NCBI GenBank assembly: GCA_026419785.1
Contig: JAODTK010002532.1
Span: 678,501 to 742,500, forward strand
From: Sclerodactyla briareus
Taxonomy: Eukaryota; Echinodermata; Holothuroidea; Dendrochirotida; Sclerodactylidae
DNA: 64,000 bases
Direction: 5' to 3'
Positions 20,090 to 56,020 of this stretch are shown in pieces. The position numbers and the translations under genes are program-made. Below the pieces are notes generated by a model that was given only the letters and a program-made list of their open reading frames with translations, did no database searches and had not been told where the DNA came from. How positions within the stretch are numbered: position 1 is the stretch's first letter; each line of letters opens with the position of its first letter.

Positions 20090-21346
20090 CCCGCTCGAGC
20101 AACATGGTTCATTGTGCCCCTCTAAATAACTTTGACTCCTTTGAATTCCTTAACACCCCATATCAAAGTATCACGAGAATCCGAACTAATTTGCAGAAGC
20201 AGCACTGTGCAGTTTCTCACATAATGACCTATCATGCTCTTTCAGTCCCGGGTTGGAGTTATTTATATTCTCCGCAGTGCGTGACGTGACGTCACCACTG
20301 CGAGTGTGCCGTGAGAGCCATCAAGTTAATGAACCCCTTTCAGAATGTAAGTGCCATAGCGCTGACCGGCCTAAAGGGTTATAACCACCTAGCCACGACA
20401 CGGTAGCATAGTGTCTGTTATTGCGATGTCCGGCCTAAAGGGGTTAACCACCTAGCCACGATACGGTATCATAGTGTCTGCCATAGCGCTGTCCGGCCTA
20501 AAGGGGTTAACCACCTAGCTGGGATGCGGTATCAGAGTGTCTGCCATAGCTCTGTCCGGCCTAAAGGGGTTAGCCACCTAGCCACGATACGGTATCAGAA
20601 TGGCTGCCATTGCGCTGTCCGGCCTAAAGGGGTTAACCACCTAGCCACGATACGGTATCAGAATGGCTGCCATTGCGCTGTCCGGGCAATGGCAGAATTG
20701 CCATTGCGCTGTCCGGCCTAAGTGGGTTAACCACCTACCTAGCCAAGATACAGTATCATAGTGTCTGCCATCGCGCTGTCCGGCCTAAAGGGGTTAACCT
20801 CCTAGCCACGATACGGTATCAGAGTGTCTGCCATTGCGCTGTCCGGGCAATGGCAGACATCTGCCATTGCGCTGTCCGGCCTAAGTGGGTTAACCACCTA
20901 CCTAGCCAAGATACAGTATCATAGTGTCTGCCATCGCGCTGTCCGGCCTAAAGGGGTTAACCACCTAGACATAATACGGTATCGAAGTGTCTGCCATTGC
21001 GCTGTCCGGCCTAAAGGGTTTAACCACATAGCCACGATACGGTATCCGAGTGTCTGCCATGGCGCTGTCCGGCCTAAAGGGGTTACCACCTAGCCACGAT
21101 ACGGTATCAGAGTGTCTGCCTAAAGGGTTTAACCACATAGCCACGATACGGTATTAAAGTGTCTGCCTAAAGGGGTTAACCACATAGCCACGATACGGTA
21201 TCAGAGTGTCTGCCTAAAGGGGTTAACCACTAGCCACGATACGGTATCAGAGTGTCTGCCATAGCGCTGTCCGGCCTAAAGGGGCTAACCACCTAGCCAC
21301 GATTCGGTATCATAGTGTCTGCCATTGCGCTGTACGACAATTCAAG
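20090..21346 (+). mobile_element. Element J, copy 2, with 63-bp minisatellite
   Basis: The left flank (20,090-20,345) matches the left flank of copy 1 at 13.1-13.3 kb, including AATTTGCAGAAGCAGCA, TGACGTCACC and a GTTAATGAACCCC.TTCAGA block. The remainder is a 63-bp array. A conserved flank plus an internal minisatellite of different unit in two copies suggests a non-autonomous transposon family that carries variable tandem repeats (some Helitron-like and other elements do this). No transposase or clear termini are visible. Confidence 0.6.
20341..21338 (+). repeat. 63-bp minisatellite, about 16 units
   Basis: Unit runs GGCCTAAAGGGGTTAACCAC, CTAGCCACGATACGGTATCA, GAGTGTCTGCCATTGCGCTG, TCC. 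Near 20,680 and 20,845 a unit carries an extra inverted segment (GGGCAATGGCAGA...TGCCATTGC). Near 21,120-21,230 three units are shortened by deletion of the CATTGCGCTGTCCGG part. This mixture of full, extended and shortened units shows unequal exchange inside the array. Confidence 0.93.
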
Positions 21347-34866: not shown

Positions 34867-36756
34867 AGATACATAACTGACATAACTGCATAGATTCTCT
34901 GACTTAGTCAAGGATCAAAAATAAACCAGAAAGCCCAAAAGGCTTAGCTGATTCTGGAATCTTTCTGACAACCTCAGCTAGAACGAGGACAAATGGGAGA
35001 TTGCACAAGCTCATTATGGGCAACATAACATTTGGCAAATTTCCCGTTTATCCCAACCAACCAGTACGGTTCATAGACGCTTGATATGAAAGAGACAACT
35101 GACATCAAGCATTTTCCACTGTGACCTATGGTGACCAGATGACATCGACCTGACCCCAAAACAATAGGGTACATGTACTGATTGTGGGGGAAACAACACA
35201 TACCAAGTATGGGCATCACCAATCCAAGTAAAGTGGAACTATCATATTAACAAGCCAAAATTGGGCAAAATATCGAATAATTTTCAATTTTTGCTCAAAT
35301 TCACCCCGACCTAAACCAAAAACAATAGGGTCCTTGTACTCCCCTTGAGAAAGCTTTACACCAAAATTCAACCTGATCGACCCGAACCAACCATTTGGAC
35401 TTATCATCTATACAAGGATTTCACACTTTGACCTCTGGTGACCTCTACCCTGACCCAAAACAATTGGATTCATGCAAATCATCATAGGGAACAACATACC
35501 AAGTGTGAACAGGGTGATTCATCCAAGTGGGGTCAAGTTAACGTGTTACGAGCTAAAAGTGGCCAAATTATCAATTTTTCCACAGTTTCCTTTTTCACAA
35601 ATCTGACCCCTGATTAACACTAAAAAAACAACAATAGGGTTCGGCTACTCCTATAAGAAAACGCAACCAAATTTCAATTGATCGGACCAAGGTTATTGGA
35701 CCTTATTGTGTTAACAGATTTGAGACTTGACCTCTATGACCTCTGACATGACACAAAACAAGTATGTATCATGTAATCCATTATGGGGATCTCATATACA
35801 AAGTATGAACTTGATCATCCAAGCTGAGGTTTTGAGTTATCGTGTTAACGAACCTGGATAAAATTGGCCAAGTTATAATGTTTCACAATATCCCATTTTT
35901 CCCCCAAACCTGATCTCCAAATTACACCATAAACATTAGGGTCCGTATCCTCATAGAAGCTGCATACAAGTTTCAACCATGATCGGACCAGGTATTCTGG
36001 ACTTATTGTGTTAACAAGATTTTCAGACTTTGACCTCTCTCGACCTCAGATGCCTTTGACCTGACCCCAAAACAATAGGGACATGTACTCATTATGGGGA
36101 AACCAATAAACAAGTATGAACTTGATCCATCTTAAGGGGGACGAGTTATGGGTCAACGAGCTAAAAATTGGCCACAAGTTATCAATTTTCCACAATTCCC
36201 AATTTCTTCCACGAACCTGACCTACGAATTACACCATAAACAATAGGGTTCCTGTACTCCTCATAAGAAGAGCATACCGCGTTTCAAAACTGGATCGGAC
36301 AGCATATGGGACGTATCGTTTAACAAGATTTTTCAGACTTGGACTCTTCTGACCTAAGATGACCTTTGAATACCACAAAAACATAGGGATCATATACTCG
36401 TTAGGGGAAACCCATATACCAAGTATGAAAGGGATTACCATATAAGTAGGGTCGAGTTATCGTATAACGAGCTAAAAATTGGCCAAATTAGCAATTTTTC
36501 ACAATTATCTTTCTTCCCAAAATCTGACCACAAATTTACACCAAAAAACAATAGGGTTCATGTTCTCCTCATAAGAAAAGCTGCATACTGAATTTCAATC
36601 TGATCGGACCTGGCATTGCGAAGTATCAGTGTTAACAAGATTTTAAATTTTGACCTCTATTTGCCTCTGAACGACCCCAAAACAATAGAGATCAGTATCA
36701 TTATGGGGAACCATATACAAAGTAGGAGACTGATCAATCAAAGAAGGTTGAGATCG

Positions 36757-36800
36757 ACCCCCCCCCCCCCCCACCGAACCCAACCTCCCCCCCCCCCCCC

Positions 36801-36841
<41 letters not shown>
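36757..36841. repeat. Poly-C tract, about 85 bp with few breaks
   Basis: Almost pure C, interrupted by ACCGAACCCAACCT and a single A. It replaces part of a family A unit just upstream of its CA/terminal module. The length is probably inaccurate in a long-read assembly. Confidence 0.8.
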
Positions 36842-36843
<2 letters not shown>

Positions 36844-39800
36844 ATACAAGGATAGTGCGTCACACACACACACACCACAATGTCAGACTGCATAGATTCC
36901 TCTGACTTCGTCGGACCAGCGCATTATGACTATTGTGTTAACAAGATTTTCCAGACTTGACCTCTCTCGACCTCAGCAGACCTTTTTGACTGACCCCAAA
37001 ACAATAGGGACACGTACTCATTATGGGCGAACCAGTATACCAAGTATGAACTGATCCATCTAAGGGGTCCGAGTTATCGTATTAACGAGCTAAAAATTGG
37101 CCAAATTAGACCAATTTTTCACAATTCTCCTTTTCTCCAAATCTACCACAGATTTACACCAAAAACAATAGGGTTGTTTTCTCCTCATAAGAAAGAGGCA
37201 TACCGAAGTTTCAAATGGATCGGACAAGGGCATTCTGGACTTATCGTGTAACAAGATTTTTCGACTTGACCTCTCTTGACCTCAGATGACCTTTGACCGA
37301 CCCCAAAACAATAGGGATCATGCTTGTACTCAGTATGGGAACCATAACCAAGTCTGAACTATGATCATCTGAAGTGCGTCGGGGTATCGTAATTAACGAG
37401 AGATAAAAATTGTGCCAACTTAGCAATTTTTCACAATTTCTCCTTTTCTTCCCAATATACCAAGATTTACCAAAAACAATAGGTTCGGTTCGCCTCATAG
37501 AGAAAGCGGAACCATACGTGAATTCAGCCTGATCGGACCTGCCATGCCTGCGACTCCTATCGTGTTACCAAGATTTTTTTCAAACTTTGACCTCTCTTGA
37601 CCTTCGACCTGACCAAAAACAATAAAGATCATGCTACTCATTATGAGGGAACCCATATACAAAGTATGAACTTGATCCGCAAGCGAGGTTGAGTTATCGG
37701 GGTAACAGGCCAGGCTGTTCGACAAAAACACACCACACACACTGTGCATGACTGCATAGATTCCTCCTGACTTCGTCGGACCATGTATTCGGATCTTATG
37801 TGTTAACAGATTTTTTCAGACTTTGACCTCGCGACGACCTCATGACTACGTGACCTGACCCCAAAAAAGTAGGGAGAATGTACCTCATTATGCGGGAACC
37901 CATATACCAAGTAGGAAACTTGATCCATCTAAGTTGGGCGTCGAGTTATAGTTAATTAACGAGCTTAAAAATGGACAAATTAGCAATTTTTCACATTTCT
38001 CCTTTTCTTCCCAAATCTACCACAGATTTACACCAAAACACAATAGGGTCCTGTACCTATAAGACAGCGGAATAATGAATTTCAACCTGGTCGGACAGGC
38101 ATTCTGGACATTCTGGACTTATCGTGTTAAACAGATTTCTCAAACTGCGACATATTTGACCTTAGACCTCGACCCAAAAAAATAGAGTCATGTACTCAAT
38201 ATCGGGAACCCATATACAAAGTATGAACTTGATCCATCCAAGCGAGGTTGAGTTTAGTGGTAACAAGGCGGATAGGCGTCACACACACACACACACACTG
38301 TCATGACTGCATAGATTCCTCTGACTTCGTTGGACCAGCATCTGGAATTTTGTGTTAACAAGATTTTTTCAGATGTGACCCTTCCTCGACCTCAGATGAC
38401 CGGTGAACTGACCCCAAAACATAGGGGATCACGTACTCATTATGGGGAACCATATACCAAGTATGAACTGACCATCTAATGGGGTCGAGTTATCGGATAA
38501 CGAAGCTATAAATGGCCAAATTAGCAATTTGGCAAATTTCTCCTTTTCTTCCCAAATCTACCAAAGATTTACACCAAAAACAATAGGTTGCTGTTCTCTC
38601 ACCATAAGAAAGATGCATACCGAGTTTCAACCTGATCGGATCAGATATTCTGGACTTATCGTGTAACAAGATTTTTTCAGAACTTTGACCTCTTCTTGAC
38701 CTCAGAGGACCTGTGACCTTGACACCAAAAACAATAGGGATCATGTACTCATATGGGGCACCCATTACCAAGTATGAATTGACCATATAAGGCGGTTAGA
38801 GTTATCGTATTAACGAGCTAAAATGGCCAAATTAGCAATTTTTTTCCCAATTTCCTCCTTTTCTTCCCAAAATCTACACAGGATTTCCACACAAAAACAA
38901 TAGGGTTCTGGTCTCCTCATAGGAAAGCTGCATACGGAATTCAGCTGATGCGGACCTGGCATTGGACTATCGTGTAACAAGGATTTTCAAACTTGACTCT
39001 CTTGACCTTGACCTGACACAAAACAATAGAGATCATGTACTCATAAGGGGAACCCATATAAAAGTATGAACTTGATCCATCCAAGCGAGGTTGAGTATCG
39101 TGGTAACAAGGGCTAGGCGTCACACACACAATGTCATGACTGCATAGATTCCTCTGACTTCGTAGGAACAGGATTCTGGACTTCTGGTGTACAAGATTTT
39201 AAGACTTTGACCTCGCCGAACTCAGATAACCTTTGACATGACCCCAAAACAAAGGGATTCATGTAATCATTATGGGGAACCATCCATATACAGTATGAAA
39301 ACTTGATCCATCTAAGTGGGAGTCAAGTTACGTGAACGAGCTAAGTTGCCCAATTATCAAATTTCCACAATTTCCCCTTTTTCCCGAAAACCTGACCCCC
39401 CGAATCACCATAAACAATAGGGTTCTTACTCTCATAACAAAGATGGCATACCGAGTTCAAAATGGATCGGGACCAGATTCTGGACTTATCGTGTTTGTTA
39501 AACAAGAGTGTTCAGACTTGGACCTCTCTGGACCGCAGATGAACTTGACCTGACCCCAAAACAATAGGGATCCTGTAATTCTTATGGGGAACACATATAC
39601 AAAGTATGAACTTGATCCATCTAAGTGGGAGTCAAGTAATCGTTTATTAACGAGCTAATGGACAAATAGAATTTTTTCCACTTTCTCCTTTCTTCCCAAA
39701 TCTACCACAAATTTACACCAAAAACAAAGGGTTCGTTCTCCTCATAGGGAAAACTGCTACTGAACTGGAATTCAACCCTGATCGGACCAGGCGTTCTGGA

Positions 39801-41045
39801 CTCATCGTGTACCAAGATTTTCAAAAACTTTGACCTCTTTGACCTTCGACCTGACCCCAAAACAATACGAGTCATGTACTCATTATGGGGAACCCATATA
39901 CCAAAGTGTGAACTGATCATCAAGCGGGTTGAGTTATCGTGGTAACAAGGCTAGGAGTCACACACACACACACACACGAACACACACTGTCATGATGCAT
40001 AGATTCCTCTGACTTAGTCGGACCAGGTATTCTGGACTTATTGTGTTAACAAGATTTTTACAGACTTTGACCTCTCTTGACCTGACCCAAAACAATAGGA
40101 TAGGTACTCCTTATGTGGACCCATATACCAAGTATGAACTTGATCCATCTAAGTGGGTCGAAGTTATCGTGTCAAGAGCTAAAATTGGCCCATTATCAAT
40201 TTCCCAAATTCCCATTTATCCCGAAACCTGACCTCCGATATTACACAATAAAACAATAAGGGAGTTCCTGTACTCCTCATAAGAAAGATGGCATACCGAG
40301 TTTCAACTGCGATCGGACCAGGCATGCGGGACTTATCGTGTTAACAAGATTTTCAGACTTTGAACTCTCTTGACCTGACCCAAAACAATAGGGATCATGT
40401 ACTCATTAGGGCGGAAACCCATATACCAAGTATGAACTTGTCATTCTAAGTGGGGTCGGGGTATCGTATTAACGAGCTAAAAGTGGCCAATTAGCAATTT
40501 TTCACACTTTCTCCTGTCTTCCCAAATCTACCACAGATTTACACCAAAAAAAATAGGGTCTGTTCGTCCTCATAAGAAAGCTGCATACCGAATTTCAACA
40601 TGATCGGGACCTGGCATCTGGGATTATCGTGTTAACAAGATTTTCAAAAAACTTTGACCTCTCTTGAACCTTGACCTGACCTGCAAAACAATAGAGGATC
40701 ATGTACTCATTAGGGGGAAGGAACCCATATACAAAGTATTAACTTGATCCATCCAAGCGAGGTTGAGTTATCGTGGTAACGAGCTAGGCGCACACACACC
40801 ACACTGTATGACTGCATAGATTCCTCCGAACTCCGTCAAGAATCAAACACAATATCATTGTAATGGTCAATTGAAACCAGTGCATGTGAGCTACAAAGGT
40901 ATTGAGGTTGATAATTGTGTTGTAGTACGGTTTTGAAATGCAGCACCAACATATTAATGATACTTCCTACTTGTACACCCCGTCTCCTCATCTGTTGATT
41001 CTCTTCATTGGAATGTCTGGATAATTAATACACATCATGGAATTT

Positions 41046-48500: not shown

Positions 48501-51500
48501 ATGAGAAGCATTTTGCATATTCTCACAAAATGAACAAAATTAACCTCTAGGTGACCTTTCACCCCATCTTTTAGTCATGCTAGAGGACCCCTCATTGGTC
48601 ATCAATGTGACCAAGTTTCATAGTAGGAAGAGTGACGAATGGAATTGATTGTGGAAAGACAGACAGACAATAGCCACATGGCTGAAATGAGCTGCTAACC
48701 TCCCCAGCGTAGCATAACCTTAGTCAATGTAGACAACAGATAGACAATAGCCACATGGCTGAAATGAGCTGCTAACCTCCCCAGCGTAGCATAACCTTAG
48801 TCAATGTAACAACAGATAGACAATAGCCACATGCTGAAATGAGCTGCTAACCTCCCCAGCGTAGGCATAACCTTAGTCAATGTAGACAACAGATAGACAA
48901 TAGCCACATGGCTGAAATGAGCTGCTAACCTCCCCAGCGTAGGCATAACCTTAGTCAATGTAGACAACATATAGACAATAGCCACATGGCTGAAATGAGC
49001 TGCTAACCTCCCCAGCGTAGGCATAACCTTAGTCAATGTAGACAACAGAAAGACAATAGCCACATGGCTGAAATGAGCTGCTAACCTCCCCAGCGTAGCA
49101 TAACCTTAGTCAATGTAGACAACAGATAGACAATAGCCACATGGCTGAAATGAGCTGCTAACCTCCCCATCGTAGGCATAACCTTAGTCAATGTAGACAA
49201 CAGATAGACAATAGCCACATGGCTGAAATGAGCTGCTAACCTCCCCAGCGTAGCTAACCTTAGTCAATGCAGAATTCCTTCTAACAGGGCAAACTGCGTC
49301 ATTTAACCAATTACAGGTGGGACAAGGATGCAGGCCTGGATAATGTCATTTTCGTCAGCTGGGAATTCTTCAATAAGTACACTGAATATAGCACTGTCTC
49401 TAGGTGGTAACTTGTGTGGGGGTGGGGTTATCACACGAGACGCCCCATTCGAATTGCCTACCTCTCGTTTCGTTGCTTGCTTCAATCCCTCGTGCTGTGG
49501 TGCCAAGCGAGAGGCCACAGGTCCCACTGTCTGTGTAATTTTGCTAGTTCAAAGTATATTGTCATCACATATTCTTAAGCTAATGTTGGGTATCAAATAG
49601 TTCAGGATAACTGTTTCTCACCAATTTCAATGTCGCTACACATCAACCCCAGGAATAGCCCTAAGCTATGCCTTTTGTCAGCATTAGTTGCTTTAAGTTC
49701 TTGACTGTGTAATGTCTCACCGTATAGAACTCCACTACAAAATTATTTTAAAGAGGGTTAGCATCTTAACGATGACCATTTCATTACCAGTTTTCTGTTA
49801 GTGAGGTTCTCATACCATGGTTTCATTGGTATGTTCATACAAGGCTTTATCACTCATAGTGCATATGACTGTTTTCCCCAGGTAACCCTCCCAATTTTTC
49901 CAGCATGGTGAAAATTTCTGGAAGAAATGATTCCTAGTTTACCTGGTTGGTTGATGTGCATCCTTCCATGTATACCCCTTAGTATCCAGGACATCAGTTA
50001 GCGTCTTTTTTTGTTGCTGTTGCAGTCTCTGAATAAGCGAGTCATCCTCTTGACGAGCCGTTGTAAGGGGGTCTGTGGACAATGATGAATGCCTAATTCA
50101 TTACTACAAGTAGGTTCTCAAACCGCTAGTCTCGCCTATTTCGCAATCAGAGATTTTTTTTTATCGCCCAGTAAGTCATTTATTAAGTTTTCCATCACCT
50201 TGATCTGATGGGTTGACTATCAGGGGATTTTGTTGTGTTACATGCTATCAATTTAATTCCACAAAAATATGATAAATTATGCAATTAGACACCTTAAATG
50301 ACCTTCTGTGACCTTTACCCTACCTTCAATTCTTGTTGGACCAAACTGGTAGCACATCCACAAAATTTCATGAAAAATTATGCAAATTATAGACACCTCA
50401 AATGACCTGTGATGACCTTGACTCTTGTCATAAATTTATCGAGACTGAAGGTAGACCATGTCCACCAAGTATCGTGGAAATCCGGCAAACTTTGCAATTT
50501 TGCATAAATTATGCGAATTAGGTACTCAATTAGCATAATTTTGGGCTGGAAATCTAATCAGTTCATCTACTGGGCTAATCCTGTTACTATTTGCCAAGCT
50601 ACATCCCTGTAGGTCCTACTCAAAAATAAAATACATAATATGGGCTAATTAACATACATAATTACTGAGTATCGTTCCCAAATACTAATCAGATCGAGTA
50701 CAGCCAACCCCGATGCTACTCTGGGAATTCTGTCGCAATTGCACTTACTGTTCGAAAGATATCCTGCTAACGAGAAAGTGTGACGCACACACACATAATA
50801 CACATGCACACACACACATACTCATGCCATAGTGATAACTAAGTCCCCTTCTGAATTTCATTCAGGTGAGACAAAAAAGCAGGGTACGGTAGTGCAGCAC
50901 CTGAGGAAAAGCTGAATTTATTCGATAAAGATAGTCTTTTATTGCCAATGTGCTCAAGTTTTGTCCATGTTGTACTTGTACTGCCTCAAAAGGCTACACA
51001 CAATTGGCTGGACTTGTACTAGTTCAAAACGTTGTTACGAACAGCCAGACTTGTACTGCTCCAAAACCATCTATGAACGGCTGGACTTGTACTGCCCCCG
51101 AAACGCCATCTATGAACGGCTGGACTTGTACTACCCCCGAAACGCCATTTACAAATGACTCGACTTGTACTTCCTGAAAATGCCATTTATAAACAGTTCT
51201 ACATGTACTGAAAACAGCTGGGGCTTGTACTGTCCTCCACGGCCATTCACAAACGACGGGACTTGTACTGCCCCCTAAACGCCATCTATAAATGGCTGGA
51301 CTTATACTGCCCAAAATGCCATTTACAAATGGCTGGACTTGATCGCACTGCTGTACATAGTGGGAGAAGCTAATCACACTGATAATACCATACTATTCAT
51401 GCACTTCACCTGTATTGAGCGGTGTGTATTTGATCTCATTTTTACAGGTTCAGGAAGCAGTTATAAGGCTAATCAAGGTACCCTGGCCATATTAATCATG

Positions 51501-54500
51501 GATGAGCACCGGCGATAACTCGCCTTCTCTTCTCAACTATTGCTAGGGTGATATGGAGGCAGGGTTTGTTGTAACTATTCCAAACCTGCTCCCAAGACCA
51601 CCGATTTACATCCCACTCTGCAGGCGATCAGTGAACCCCAGGATCTGACCTCCTGGAGGAATGGAAAGATTAATGTGTTCCAGACGACGGACAGGACCTC
51701 CTATGTAAATATCCCAAAACAAACTCCAGAAACCCATGCAACAAATCAATGCCTACAGCAGAAATAGCAGTGAAGACCAAACCTTGCACATTGGAACTAG
51801 AGGTGCAGCCACAAAATTCGAACATGGAATACTTGCAGAGTGTGATGGTACCACTATGCCATTGATCAGTGTATAGATGAACAGTAGTAGCATGCTGATG
51901 ATGCCATACTGGTCCTGGGAAAAATGTTATTGAGCTTCGTGCATCATCTGTGTTCATGTGCTGTAGCATGCGGTCAAATGTGTACATAACATATAAGGTG
52001 CCGAGCGCTGAATGTAGGGTTAGTCTGACCTTGCTGACCTTGATCAGAAGTTGTATACATTCTGTGTACTAACCGTCTAACATACTAACAATAGTATGCC
52101 TACCTGTGTCGAGCCCTGCGTACTATCGATCTGTGTGCTGAGCAACATGTGACCAATATTCACAGGCTGAGAAAAGCTAAATGTGCTGTTAGTTGTAAGG
52201 TGTTTCACCGACTGGTCTGAGACACTTGGTGTGACTGGAGATTCTGGCAACTCGGTGGCTCTGGGCTTATAGGCGAAAATATGGTCCGCTCTGGAAAACA
52301 TAAACAAAATGTAATGAGTCAATTGGTCATGTTATGAAAGAATTGACTTTCGGTATTTCTATGATAATACTGATCGAGTATCATATCCAACTGATCTGTA
52401 GGAGAAATTTGCAGTTTTCCACATAATAGCTCATTATGCTCCTTGATTTTTTTTCCCTAAGTCTGAGTACCCATAGCTACCACTAGTCCATGATAACACT
52501 GGATGAGCATGATGGTAAATCAAAACACAAATCTGTAGCAGGAGCATTTTGAAGATTTTTTTTACATAGTTCATTATGCCCCTATAATGACCTGTATACC
52601 CTATAGCTACTACTATGATAACACCGTGGTGAGTATGATGGTAATCCAACCCAATCTGTAGCAGGAGCATTTTGAAGATTTTTCTTACATAGTTCATTAT
52701 GCCCCTATAATGACCTGTATACCCTATAGCTACTACTATGATAACCACCGTGTGAGTATGATGGTAATCCAACCCAATCCGTAGGAGCAGCATTTTGAAG
52801 ATTTTTCTTACATAGTTCATTATGCCCCCATAATAACCTGTACCCCCCAGAAACATGGGTTCGCTTTTATCAATCAGAAAGAATATGGTATAGCAATGGA
52901 GGAAAACGAAACCAGCCACACACTACTGTAACTAATGCAATCAGCTGCAAGTTAAACAGGGAAGGTAAGATACTCAAAACCTCTGACCTGTGAAGGAGGT
53001 GAAGCAGGTGAAAGGTCATGGTTTGAACAGAGTCTCTTGATTGGTCCCTGGCCGGAGGGTGAGCTGGAAGGAATCTTGCTTGAGTGACCTAGAAAAAAAA
53101 CAGTGGGAGCATTGATGATTCCTTGCATGCAAGATCCTAATCTATTATCTGAAGCATGGAGACTGACAACTTTTGAGGCCCCCAGTTATACCTGTGCTGT
53201 GCCATCAACAGGGTCCAGGGATTTTTGTTGAACCAAGGTAAGAGCGAAAATGACCCAGGGATCTCTCCCATACGAGACTTCAGTCTGCCATCCTAAGGTA
53301 CCTGAGATCTATCCCAAGTGAGGCCTCAATCTTGACCATTATACCACACCACCACCCTAGCAGTAACCATGTGAGACTTCAATCTTGACCATGACACCAG
53401 CCTACCACTCTAGCAGTAACCATGTGAGACTTCAATCTTGACCATGACGCCACACTACCACCCTAGCAGTACCATGTGAAACCTCAATCTTAACCATGAC
53501 ACCACACTACCACCCTAGCAGTAACCATGTGAAACTCAATCTCAACTATGACACCACACTACCACCCTAGCAGTACCATGTGAAACCTCAATCTTGGACC
53601 ATGACACCACACTACCACCCTAGCAGTAACCATGTGAACCTCATCTTGACCATGACACCAGCCTACCACTCTAGCAGTAACCATGTGAGACTTCAATTTT
53701 GACCATGACACCAGCCTACCACTCTAGCAGTAACCATGCGAAACCTCAATCTTGACCATGACGCCACAGTACCACCCTAGCAGTAACCATGTGAGACTTC
53801 AATCTTGACCATGACGCCACAGTACCACCCTAGCAGTAACAATGTGAAACCTCAATCTTGACCATGACACCAGCCTACCACTCTAGCAGTAACCATGTGA
53901 AACCTCAATCTTGACCATGGCACCACACTACCACCCTAGCAGTAACCATGTGAAACCTCAATCTTGACCATGATGCCACAGTACCACCCTAGCAGTAACC
54001 ATGTGAGACTTCAATCTTGACCATGACACCACACTACCACCTAGCAGTACCATGTGAAACCTCAATCTTAACCATGACACCACACTACCACCATAGCAGT
54101 AACCATGTGAGACTTCAATCTTGACCATGACACCACACTACCACCTAGCAGTAACCATGTGAAACCTCAATCTTGACCATGGCGCCACAGTACCACCCTA
54201 GCAGTAACCATGTGAGACTTCAATCTTGACCATTACACCAGCCTACCACTCTAGCAGTAACCATGTGACACCTCAATCTTGACCATGATGCCACAGTACA
54301 ACCCTAGCAGTAACCATGTGAGACTTCAATCTTGACCATTACACCACACCTCCCTAGCATAACCATGTGAAACCTTCATCTTGACCATGACACCACACTA
54401 CCTCCCTAGCAGTAACATGTGAAACCTTCATCTTGACCATGACACCACACTAACCACCCTAGCAGTAACCATGTGAGACTTCAATCTTGACCATTATACC

Positions 54501-56020
54501 ACACCACCACCCTAGCAGTACCATGTGAAACCTCAATCTTGACCATGACACCACGCTACCACCCTAGCAGTAACAATGTGAAACCTCAATCTTGACCATG
54601 GCACCACACTACCACCCTAGCAGTAACCATGCGAAACCTCAATCTTGACCATGGCACCACACTACCCCCCTAGCAGTAACCATGTGAAACCTTAATCTTG
54701 ACCATGACACCAGCCTACCACTCTAGCAGTAACCATGTGAAACCTCAATCTTGGACCATGACACCACACTACCACCCTAGCAGAACCATGTGAAACCTCA
54801 ATCTTGACCATGATGCCACAGTACCACCCTAGCAGTAACCATGTGAGACTTCAATTTTGACCATGACACCACAGTACAACCCTAGCAGTAACCATGTGAA
54901 ACTCAATCTTGACCATGACGCCACACTACCACCCTAGCAGTAACCATGTGAAACCTCAATCTTGACCATGATGCCACAGTACCACCCTAGCAGTAACCAT
55001 GTGAGACTTCAATCTTGACCATTACACCAGCCTACCACTCTAGCAGTAACCATGTGAAACCTCAATCTTGACCATGACACCAGCCTACCACTCTATAATC
55101 CAATCATCCTTGGCATACTAGGACCTATGTACTTCTGTCCTATGAACCATTTACATTGGCATACTGAGACCTATGTACTTTTTGTACTAAGCCATCCATC
55201 TCATGGCACACTACAACCTATGAACCTCTTGTCCTATAACTATTTTTTGTTAGCATACTGGGACTTGCGTACCTTTTGTCCTATAAACTATTTTTATCAG
55301 CATAATAAGACCTATGTACCTTCTTCCTATAAACACTCTTATTAGCATACTAGGACCTTGGTACCAGGGTCAGTTTAAAACCATTTTTGGTTAGCATACT
55401 ATACCTTCTGTCCTATAATCAATTTATCATTAACATACTAAGTCCTCTGTACCTTTGCCCTGAAAATCATTCATCATCACACCCCATAGAGACTGCTGAA
55501 TCTCTCGCCATGTTTAAGACACTTTTGAAAACACATCTTTTCAGTTTCTCAAAATTATTTCATTTCTTTTGCCTGTTTCGTGTCAGCCTATGTCATTTAC
55601 TTACTTTTATACATCACTTCCTTATAATAGCTTCGCCATAATGATTTTTAACTTTTTTTCAAAAACACATTTTGTTCGCATTCATAGTGTAATTTGATAA
55701 TTTCTAATCTATTCTTATGTATATATATATATATTAACCTTTGTCTTTTGTAAATACCGTTTTCATTTTCGTTGTTTTACGTGTATTCTAACGTCGTGAG
55801 AACACCTAGAGGGGCCCCTTGGTTTGCGCTATATCCAGAACTTAATTTATTTATCATTATTATTATTGACATACCAGGACCTACATACCTTTTTTCCTGA
55901 AACCACCTGTCTTCTTGATATGGTATCGGTGTATTCGTTCCGCGTGGTTCGTGCCAAAGAATTTTCCTCAGGAGAGCTAGAGAAGGGGAAAAAAGGCTTT
56001 CCACAATATTGTATTGAATA
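45380..56020 (-). CDS. CHEK1: CHEK1 (checkpoint kinase 1), C-terminal half, six exons
   Basis: Serine/threonine kinase CHK1, the nuclear effector of ATR in the replication and DNA-damage checkpoint (CDC25 is its best-known target). Exons on minus, 5' to 3': 55,889-56,020; 52,988-53,088; 52,104-52,290; 49,943-50,072; 46,712-46,814; 45,380-45,531. They read, in order, the last kinase helices (LALLRKIL, DRWF), a Ser/Pro-rich linker, the SQ/TQ cluster with FSQP (equivalent of human Ser345, an ATR site) and the KA1-like autoinhibitory region (RLVKRMTRLF, FKVNLLEMD, ILVDFRLSK, GDGLEFKRHF). Together they cover roughly human residues 225 to the end. The ATP-binding and catalytic loops are not found between 56,020 and 64,000, so the gene is partial in this window. 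Junctions are canonical GT/AG, but several exons need one-base frame corrections. These look like sequencing errors, not gene decay, because splice sites and codon choice are intact. Orthology rests on the recalled human protein. Confidence 0.9.
45905..45985 (-). mobile_element. tRNA-like SINE head in CHEK1 intron
   Basis: Minus strand reads GTTGGCACAGTTGGTGGAGC (A-box-like), then GTCAGCCTTCCACCTGG (anticodon-arm-like) and a weak B box. Sequence down to about 45,780 may be its body. Same strand as CHEK1. Confidence 0.4.
46545..46625 (-). mobile_element. tRNA-like SINE head in CHEK1 intron
   Basis: Minus strand reads GTATAGCCAGATGGTTTTAG (A-box-like), CGTTTGACCTCGAATCGG and GGACCTGGTTCAATGCC, with B box GGTTCAATGCC. 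A tRNA-derived head is likely. The body towards 46,350 is of unknown family. It lies just 3' of the 46.7 kb exon. Confidence 0.45.
46712..46814 (-). CDS. CHEK1: CHEK1 exon, KA1 region
   Basis: Acceptor TTCATTCCTAG, donor TCAAAG|GTGAGT. It reads VTVTLTTR, then after one missing base FKVNLLEMDS and NILVDFRLSK, matching human VTISTTDRR, FKVNLLEMDD and KILVDFRLSK. Confidence 0.93.
47123..47525 (-). repeat. 50-58-bp tandem array with tRNA-like monomer, 8 units
   Basis: Units start at about 47,123, 47,179, 47,235, 47,290, 47,341, 47,398, 47,448 and 47,504. The minus-strand consensus includes GAGCATTGTAACTTACAACA, CAGAG and GGTACCTAATTCAATGCC. The last resembles a B box (compare GGTTCAATGCC at 46.55 kb), and the first resembles the D/anticodon arms. 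The array may thus be an amplified piece of a SINE head. Lies in a CHEK1 intron. Confidence 0.75.
47880..48350 (+). repeat. Family A repeat, diverged, in CHEK1 intron
   Basis: TTTTGACCTGACCCCAAAAC, AAAAGGGTACATG, TACTCATTATGG, AGTGGGATCGAGTTACTG, then a second unit with CATGTACTCATTATGAGGAA. Antisense to CHEK1. Confidence 0.6.
48665..49275 (-). repeat. 78-bp minisatellite, about 8 near-identical units
   Basis: Unit on plus: GACAATAGCCACATGGCTGA, AATGAGCTGCTAACCTCCCC, AGCGTAGGCATAACCTTAGT, CAATGTAGACAACAGATA. Units are almost identical apart from 1-base deletions, so the array is young or homogenised. 78 is a multiple of three and the minus strand stays open (26-residue repeats containing LSTLTKVMPTLGRLAAHF). 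I regard this frame as a by-product. Confidence 0.95.
49276..49942. other. CHEK1 intron, no further feature
   Basis: A 74-codon minus frame (49,303-49,527) containing IEEFPADENDIIQACI has a coding look, but I found no family and no matching splice sites. It does not correspond to any part of CHK1. Confidence 0.3.
49943..50072 (-). CDS. CHEK1: CHEK1 exon, start of KA1 region
   Basis: Acceptor ATTGTCCACAG, donor CCAACCAG|GTAAAC. After one frame correction it reads RLVKRMTRLFRDCNSN. After an A-homopolymer (AACAAAAAAAGACG), where the frame shifts again, it reads TLTDVLDTKGYTWKDA. Human has RLVKRMTRFF and KLGYQWKK at these points. Confidence 0.9.
50180..50620. repeat. Family E repeat in CHEK1 intron
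   Basis: Contains AATGACCTTCTGTGACCTTT, ATTTCATGAAAAATTATGCA, CAAATGACCTGTGATGACCT, GTGGAAATCCGGCAAACTTT and TTGCATAAATTATGCGAATT, the same motif order as 2,230-2,580. Confidence 0.6.
50965..51350. repeat. 39-bp minisatellite, about 9 diverged units
   Basis: Unit: CTGGACTTGTACTGCCCCCG, AAACGCCATCTATGAACGG. Preceded by a CA-rich stretch (50,785-50,820). Lies in the CHEK1 intron between the 49.9 and 52.1 kb exons. The unit length is divisible by three, so long frames appear on both strands. Confidence 0.88.
51351..52103. other. CHEK1 intron, no further feature
   Basis: The 105-codon minus frame at 51,670-51,987 is on the CHEK1 strand but matches no part of CHK1 and lacks matching splice sites. 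Confidence 0.4.
52104..52290 (-). CDS. CHEK1: CHEK1 exon, SQ/TQ cluster
   Basis: Acceptor TTATGTTTTCCAG, donor GACACAG|GTAGGC. It reads KPRATELPESPVTP, then FSFSQPVNIGHMLLSTQ and IDSTQGSTQ. Human CHK1 has ISFSQP, HMLLNSQ and GSSQ here. FSQP carries the residue equivalent to Ser345, phosphorylated by ATR; three further TQ sites follow. The first codons need a one-base correction to join the previous exon in frame. Confidence 0.92.
52400..52845. repeat. 123-bp tandem repeat, about 3.5 units
   Basis: TAATGACCTGTATACCCTAT recurs at 52,585 and 52,708, with a diverged copy at 52,831. Each unit contains GAGTATGATGGTAATCCAAC, GTAG.AG.AGCATTTTGAAG and ACATAGTTCATTATGCCCC. Similar single text (GATCGAGCATCATGAAAAT, TTTTTCACACAA) lies at 29,880-29,960, so the array grew from a dispersed repeat. 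Lies in a CHEK1 intron. Confidence 0.9.
52988..53088 (-). CDS. CHEK1: CHEK1 exon, linker
   Basis: Acceptor GTTTTTTTTCTAG, donor CTTCACAG|GTCAGA. It reads HSSKIPSSSPSGQ and KRLCSNHDLSPASPPSQ without interruption. Human has SESPSG and QSNLDFSP in the same order. The terminal SQ may correspond to the human Ser317 region. The LKKG-type basic residues that should follow DRWF of the previous exon are not seen, so a small exon may be missing between 53.1 and 55.9 kb. Confidence 0.88.
53200..53350 (-). mobile_element. Possible tRNA-derived SINE head next to the 53-bp array
   Basis: Minus strand reads GTGTGGTATAATGGTCAAGA, resembling a tRNA D-arm/A box. GATTGAGGCCTCACTTGGGA and further downstream GGGAGAGATCCCTGGGTCA follow. 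Its first part is homologous to the 53-bp unit of the adjacent array. Confidence 0.35.
53350..55090 (-). repeat. 53-bp minisatellite, about 33 units
   Basis: Plus-strand unit: ACCATGTGAAACCTCAATCT, TGACCATGACACCACACTAC, CACCCTAGCAGTA. Recurring variants (GAGACTTCAATC versus GAAACCTCAATC; GACGCCACAGTACCACC versus GACACCAGCCTACCACT) alternate in blocks, evidence of multi-unit duplications. On minus the unit reads CTAGGGTGGTAGTGTGGTGT then CATGGTCAAGATTGAGG, resembling the tRNA-like head at 53,200-53,350. Lies in a CHEK1 intron. Confidence 0.95.
55112..55473 (-). repeat. 47-bp array made of copies of a CHEK1 exon-intron junction, 8 units
   Basis: Units begin at about 55,112 and recur every 39-49 bp. 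A plus-strand example: AACATACTAAGTCCTCTGTA, CCTTTGCCCTGAAAATCATT. The donor end of the CHEK1 exon at 55,869-55,905 reads GACATACCAGGACCTACATA, CCTTTTTTCCTGAAACCACC. The two align along about 40 bp, so each unit contains about 20 exon bases, the GT and about 20 intron bases. On minus, all eight units keep a GT at the junction position (for example GCAAAG|GTACAG, GAAG|GTATAG, AAAAG|GTACGC). Confidence 0.8.
55474..55867 (+). mobile_element. 3' end of an L2/CR1-like non-LTR retrotransposon
   Basis: It reads PIETAESLAMFKTLLKTHLF on plus. The ending ESLxxFKxxLKTHLF is the usual C-terminus of L2/CR1-type ORF2. About 300 bp of 3' UTR follows, with TTTGCGCTATATCCAGAACT and TTATTTATCATTATTATTAT as tail. 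Extremely 5'-truncated, antisense to CHEK1. It lies between the 47-bp array and the parental exon donor, about 20 bp from the splice site. Confidence 0.75.
55889..56020 (-). CDS. CHEK1: CHEK1 exon, end of kinase domain
   Basis: It reads SPSLALLRKILWHEPRG then TPIPYQEDRWFQEK on minus. Human has APLALLHKIL and ITIPDIKKDRWYNK here, the last helices of the kinase domain. Donor GAAAAAAG|GTATGT. The acceptor CCCACAG at 56,021-56,027 has a poor pyrimidine tract, and the first 12 or so codons need a frame change, so this boundary is less certain. Confidence 0.85.

Follow-up and report, generated by a model that had tools for sequence, protein, structure and literature searches.

An intron of the checkpoint kinase gene CHEK1 in the holothuroid Sclerodactyla briareus carries a tandem array of eight 47-bp units that resemble the neighbouring exon end, its 5' splice site and the start of the intron. 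The array lies in the 64,000-nucleotide stretch analysed here (referred to as the window; assembly GCA_026419785.1, contig JAODTK010002532.1, positions 678,501 to 742,500). We consider it probable that it is an old, degenerate mirage, as tandemly duplicated exon/intron boundaries are called in amphioxus globins (PMC3087553), seeded by the end of the CHEK1 exon and its donor. A segment of about 47 bp, made up of the exon end, the 5' splice site and ~30 bases from the start of the intron, would have been duplicated in tandem, its copies coming to lie within the intron on the downstream side of the true donor, which would itself be the first unit. Growth of the array would have proceeded by slippage or unequal exchange. 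A fragment resembling a long interspersed nuclear element (LINE) would later have inserted between unit one and the remaining units, and the copies would have drifted to 63-75% identity with the junction. Two further arrays of this kind were found at other kinase loci of the same genome, and this recurrence is the more interesting part of the result.

The array occupies positions 55,113-55,477 on the minus strand, which is the strand of the gene, and follows CHEK1 exon B (55,889-55,976, minus strand). Exon B was delimited by tblastn, a match of the stitched exons to Chk1 chains, and inspection of the sequence for splice sites; it is 88 bp long, encodes the end of the kinase domain (...QEDRWFQEK) and terminates at 55,889 with the donor AAAAAAG|GTATGTAGG, the GT standing at 55,888. 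Tandem Repeats Finder (TRF) called the array at 55,113-55,365 with a period of 47, 5.4 copies and 67% matches; splitting it manually gave eight units and extended it to about 55,475-55,479. On the basis of the unit split and alignment, a GT is present at the junction position in all eight units (55,452, 55,404, 55,364, 55,319, 55,272, 55,225, 55,178 and 55,132), exactly as the sequence-only reading of this stretch had stated. The GT is preceded by AG in five of the eight units and by AAG in four, which agrees with the several AAG|GT copies claimed by that reading, and one unit has a G at position +5. Overall, the units are 62-91% alike and the junction is 63-75% like the units; TTTCAGG is common to the exon and the nearest unit. 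A 76-base query of the 47-bp consensus retrieved no other copy from the 319-Mb assembly than the array itself (single candidate scored). A FastTree phylogeny of the junction and the units had weak support.

The relation between array and junction was evaluated with a profile hidden Markov model (HMM) built from the eight array units only, with which both strands of the 64-kb window were searched while the array was masked. The top match, and the only significant one, lay on the minus strand at 55,905-55,870 (17.5 bits, E 2.9e-4), the runner-up reaching 5.2 bits. This founder or first unit comprises 36 ungapped bp, 17 exonic and 19 intronic, and includes the donor GT; the last ~17 bases of exon B thus make up the exonic share of the unit. 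None of 540 random 64-kb windows generated by a Markov-1 model attained 17.5 bits (0/40, maximum 16.1; 0/500, maximum 14.7). A second HMM, built from four copies, again ranked the junction first (55,866-55,898, E 8.3e-4). The alignment of the unit with exon end, donor and intron start proposed earlier is therefore retained, at a length of about 36 bp instead of about 40 bp.

The interval that lies between exon and array is not repeat: positions 55,478-55,867 (plus strand) are a 3' fragment of a dispersed LINE-like retroelement, which separates the first unit from the other units. Besides itself, this insert has at least 19 matches on 19 other contigs, and its edges were taken from other copies. 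Among 11 of 19 loci compared, five copies start at 55,478 and six between 7 and 28 bases inside that edge; the right edge, 55,867, is where a second piece of one copy ends. The insert contains the motif ...AESLAMFKTLLKTHLF and an (ATT)n tail, and its copies read (A/V)ESLAMF(K/E)xLLKTH(V/L)F at two loci (L007, L008) and HWLPVEDRIVYELL at another (L016), peptides which we take to be the C-terminal part of CR1/L2-type LINE proteins. When the insert is left out, the distance from the junction GT to the first GT of the array becomes 436-390 = 46 bp (48 bp for an insert of 388 bp), compared with 40-48 bp within the array. Because this spacing is in phase with the array, the units were probably at one time continuous as far as the exon, with the junction as the first of them. 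Its contiguity with the true boundary is thus seen after allowing for the insert and is interrupted today. Running TRF on the sequence without the insert did not lengthen the array call.

The two halves of the junction match differ in strength. The score of the intron half was equalled at none of 7,826 other GT sites. The exon half, aligned with gaps, anchored at its end and summed over the eight units, was equalled at 0/585 AGGT sites, at 0/158 AAGGT sites and by 6/2,000 shuffles that keep the AAG. Several observations weigh against an exonic origin. Scored by the best single unit, the exon half was equalled at 7/585 AGGT and 6/158 AAGGT sites and by 102/2,000 shuffles; scored without gaps, at 8/585 AGGT and 20/7,826 GT sites; and scored without its final AAG, at 1,776/126,846 positions. 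This AAG supplies about 4 of the 5 bits of the ungapped exon-half score, and the HMM from four copies extends just ~10 bases into the exon. Single pairwise alignments, by which the sequence-only reading had expected units and junction to stand out from random sequence, were not significant (blastn best E 0.036; best local score reached at 7.5% of 400 random positions); it takes the profile to reveal the signal. The 12 further CHEK1 splice junctions had no copy in their flanks beyond chance, and of 12 window arrays tested the 47-bp array alone matched a known splice junction among the matches listed (at most six per array, known junctions being those of CHEK1). The right edge of the insert is defined by a single copy. 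Finally, stray units are common at array edges, so that a unit at the junction could also stem from an array that had simply spread as far as the exon. Taken together, these control comparisons at GT, AGGT and AAGGT sites, with shuffles and by pairwise alignment leave no doubt about the intron half of the match and make the exon half likely, with moderate support.

The same controls bear on the account in which the array arose from the intron alone and spread to the donor, the likeness of the exon half being due to chance and to the general donor consensus with AAG before GT. This account is unlikely, yet it draws on real features of the data: 19.6 of the 24.6 bits lie in the intron half, the ungapped exon half is unremarkable beyond its AAG, about one in twenty shuffles equals the exon half by the best single unit, and stray edge units are frequent in this genome. 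It does not readily accommodate the summed gapped score, which exceeds 585/585 AGGT sites, 158/158 AAGGT sites and 1,994/2,000 shuffles, nor the TTTCAGG shared by exon and nearest unit, nor the two other arrays in the genome that clearly contain coding sequence. An origin in the opposite direction, with the minisatellite first and one of its units adopted as exon end and donor, is hardly credible. The junction does fall within the range of unit diversity; against this, the exonic part encodes WFQEK, which aligns with the last residues of the kinase domain of human Chk1 (DRWYNK), and the search of the assembly, with a single candidate scored, did not find the repeat a second time. For these two reasons we infer that the gene seeded the array and not the reverse, with the exon as its source. 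Seeding by the exon end and donor is further supported by the junction being about as similar to the units as distant units are to each other, and by the precedent published for amphioxus. The earlier proposal that a minisatellite had grown from a splice junction is in this respect upheld, by the two-sided profile match, the lack of further copies in the genome search, the in-phase spacing and the two younger kinase cases described below.

Whether the copies form a row of effective decoy donors, as had also been suggested, was evaluated by scoring donors with a simple Shapiro-Senapathy-like matrix. The true donor of exon B scored 5.57, and the copies, from the exon outward, scored 0.75, 0.92, -2.27, 1.82, 3.88, -3.10, -1.52 and -2.32, all eight being below the true donor and seven lacking the +5 G. 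For comparison, the other inferred CHEK1 donors scored 5.68 (A), 3.04 (B2), 4.59 (C) and 8.24 (E); the copy at 55,272, with 3.88 at the 99th percentile of donor scores, exceeds the inferred real donor of B2. An extra GT inside the junction unit (55,874) scored 3.49. Ranked against all 4,220 GTs on the gene strand, two of the 32 GTs of the array were above the 95th percentile, which is about chance. These values do not bear out a row of effective decoys. Given the weak donor signals of the copies and a true donor that is both first and strongest, the copies are likeliest to be inert passengers now, and decoy function at CHEK1 appears unlikely. Use of a copy donor would most likely truncate Chk1 after the kinase domain in either possible frame. 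If exon B is one A shorter than assembled (frame 2), as the reading frame into exon B2 suggests, the retained intron sequence runs into a stop after no more than three codons; the assembled frame (frame 1) stays open for about 35 codons, into the insert.

A variant of the exon-seeded origin holds that the copies would be functional at present, either because their pairing with U1 would shield the intron from premature cleavage or because they would tune the splicing of a Chk1 consisting of the kinase domain only. The universal retention of the GT, the position of the intron directly after the kinase domain and the one copy at the 99th percentile could be read in this way. With strong donors no more frequent than by chance and the +5 G missing from nearly all units, we regard such a function as very improbable, and degenerate, mostly inert copies remain the preferred interpretation.

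To place the CHEK1 array among other genes, we drew on a PF00069 kinase search of the same genome, which yielded 39 matches from 90 candidates; 30 loci (95,091 bp) were fetched. As these loci are not independent genes, as arrays visible to TRF were the ones covered, and as CHEK1 itself is not among the 39 matches, the survey does not give a rate. TRF reported 20 merged arrays with periods of 15-200 over the 30 loci. Two independent arrays start inside a kinase match and carry a donor. One of them (L037:1713-2146, contig C3080 near 39,887-40,126; 77 bp x 5.7, 79% matches) begins within a kinase exon ending EYLDW|GTAAGG and repeats the end of this exon with its donor; an HMM of the downstream copies reaches 31 bp into the exon (E 2.3e-15). 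Its inferred true donor scored 4.04, and the downstream copies scored 4.23, 2.13 and, for the rest, below 1. The other (L024:1510-2287, contig C144 near 166,877; 171 bp x 4.4, 82% matches) repeats most of a kinase exon together with its donor (...ELFTQAING|GTAAGTT). The kinase is presumably MAST-like, and its reading frame has one stop inside the match. Here the inferred true donor scored 6.34 and the four downstream copies 6.34, 6.34, 4.82 and 6.34. Locus L020 carries the array of L037 again. Stray matches at L020 and L022 were not accepted as mirages, nor was a 16-bp x 2 array at L021, two bases from the kinase match.

The arrays at L037 and L024 are younger, unmistakable cases of the same kind as the CHEK1 array. 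With one old case at CHEK1 and two younger ones in a set of just 30 kinase loci, splice junctions would seem to be duplicated often in this genome. More tentatively, and with considerable doubt on our part, exon-seeded minisatellites might be a standing process, with an age series that leads from perfect decoys (L024) through weaker ones (L037) to nearly inert copies (CHEK1); decoys would decay along the series because splicing at a downstream copy would cut the protein short. Only three arrays make up the series, with 82%, 79% and 67% TRF matches, respectively, and in L037 one copy still outscores the first donor. If there is such a process, introns would grow on material supplied by the splice junctions of their own genes, and the series would offer a direct view of how the spliceosome picks the first of many equal donors.

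The amphioxus Adh3 mirage was reportedly described by Canestro et al. in 2002 (doi 10.1093/nar/gkf386). Instability of this mirage in length and in somatic tissue is cited in PMC3087553 and PMC3902484, and mirages have been reported from a handful of amphioxus genes, which besides the globins include Adh, TnC and PGBD5 (PMC3087553, PMC3902484). The cases given this name there all have cephalochordate hosts, and undisturbed regular splicing counts among the traits of a mirage. The CHEK1 array resembles them in adjoining an exon as a tandem array (47 bp, eight units), in a unit that spans the boundary (clear for the intron half; moderate for the exon half, which is strong when summed and weaker by best single unit) and in splice signals carried by many, not all, units (GT in 8/8, AG in 5/8). 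Minisatellite-like duplication of a boundary, with AG/GT in many but not all repeats, is likewise described for the globin genes BflGb6 and BflGb9 (PMC3087553). In BflGb9, as in CHEK1, the duplicated boundary is the 3' one of an exon, whereas in BflGb6 the acceptor side is duplicated and the units are 150-160 bp long and 81-100% identical (PMC3087553). The CHEK1 case differs from the globin mirages, as these are presented there, in its 47-bp units, in their identity of 62-91% and in the LINE-like insert that separates the exon. In lancelet PGBD5, imperfect tandem repeats of 60 bp and 108 bp have first copies that abut 5' splice sites, similarly to the arrangement proposed here; two and three copies of them are present, against seven and six in a different version of the sequence, and the available part of the report mentions no insertion (PMC3902484). 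In human segmental duplications, minisatellites have likewise expanded as internal tandem repeats at exon-intron boundaries, accompanied by novel introns and splice patterns, but these are recent and variable between human paralogs (PMC2812944). The CHEK1 case did not appear among the matches listed in literature on CHEK1, minisatellites, amphioxus or mirages; it is an old, LINE-interrupted addition to the known mirages. Arrays like these provide natural tests of whether the first or the strongest of many similar sites is chosen as donor, of decoy decay, and of the model proposed in PMC3087553, according to which mirages can seed new introns.

Exon pieces of CHEK1 were located by tblastn on the minus strand from 61.8 to 45.5 kb of the window, with human CHK1 as query; the adjacent 10 kb contain upstream exons, which correspond approximately to residues 142-202 and 64-96. 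Chk1 chains in PDB matched the stitched window exons (C-terminal part, E 3.1e-23; kinase part, E 2.2e-15). The exon B peptide searched alone against PDB gave no match, and Pfam gave none above cut-off for the stitched CHEK1 piece. In the assembly searched (319 Mb, 3,171 contigs, the window being 678,501-742,500 of contig C2061), the exon B region was found in one place, itself (single candidate scored); an apparent upstream duplicate of exon B, seen as a match in L006, is the same locus. The coding exons (window 61,748-45,430) contain about four frame changes, located in A, D, E and between B and B2. Those in D and B coincide with runs of seven and six A and that in E with CC, and further frame changes occur in the upstream exons. 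Stops were present inside 11 of the 39 kinase matches of the same genome, so the assembly looks noisy. Errors in assembled bases are accordingly the likelier cause of the CHEK1 frame changes, and a decaying gene the less likely one. Rfam and tRNA scans returned nothing.

The intron that hosts the array extends from 55,888 to 53,089 (2,800 bp) and is followed by exon B2 (52,988-53,088, minus strand). About 90% of it is repeats and insert: its components are the intronic part of the junction unit, the 390-bp insert, the 47-bp array, a second minisatellite and ~250 bp of other sequence. The second minisatellite (53,324-55,095, minus strand; 53-bp unit x 33.7, 88% matches by TRF) comes directly after the 47-bp array and makes up 63% of the intron; its source was not found within the window. 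Kinship of the two arrays, which seemed plausible at their boundary, was rejected, since in a comparison of the consensus sequences 975/2,000 shuffles did equally well, and a search of 212 bases at this boundary with the 47-bp HMM detected nothing. Another CHEK1 intron, between D and E, contains a 78-bp x 8 array (48,659-49,273; 96% matches) that looks recent and had no splice-junction match. Elsewhere in the window, a ~300-bp tandem family with 76-79% matches forms several mutually related blocks at 35,860-40,786, and a complex array with nested periods of 47, 63, 98 and 163 bp occupies 20,352-21,333.

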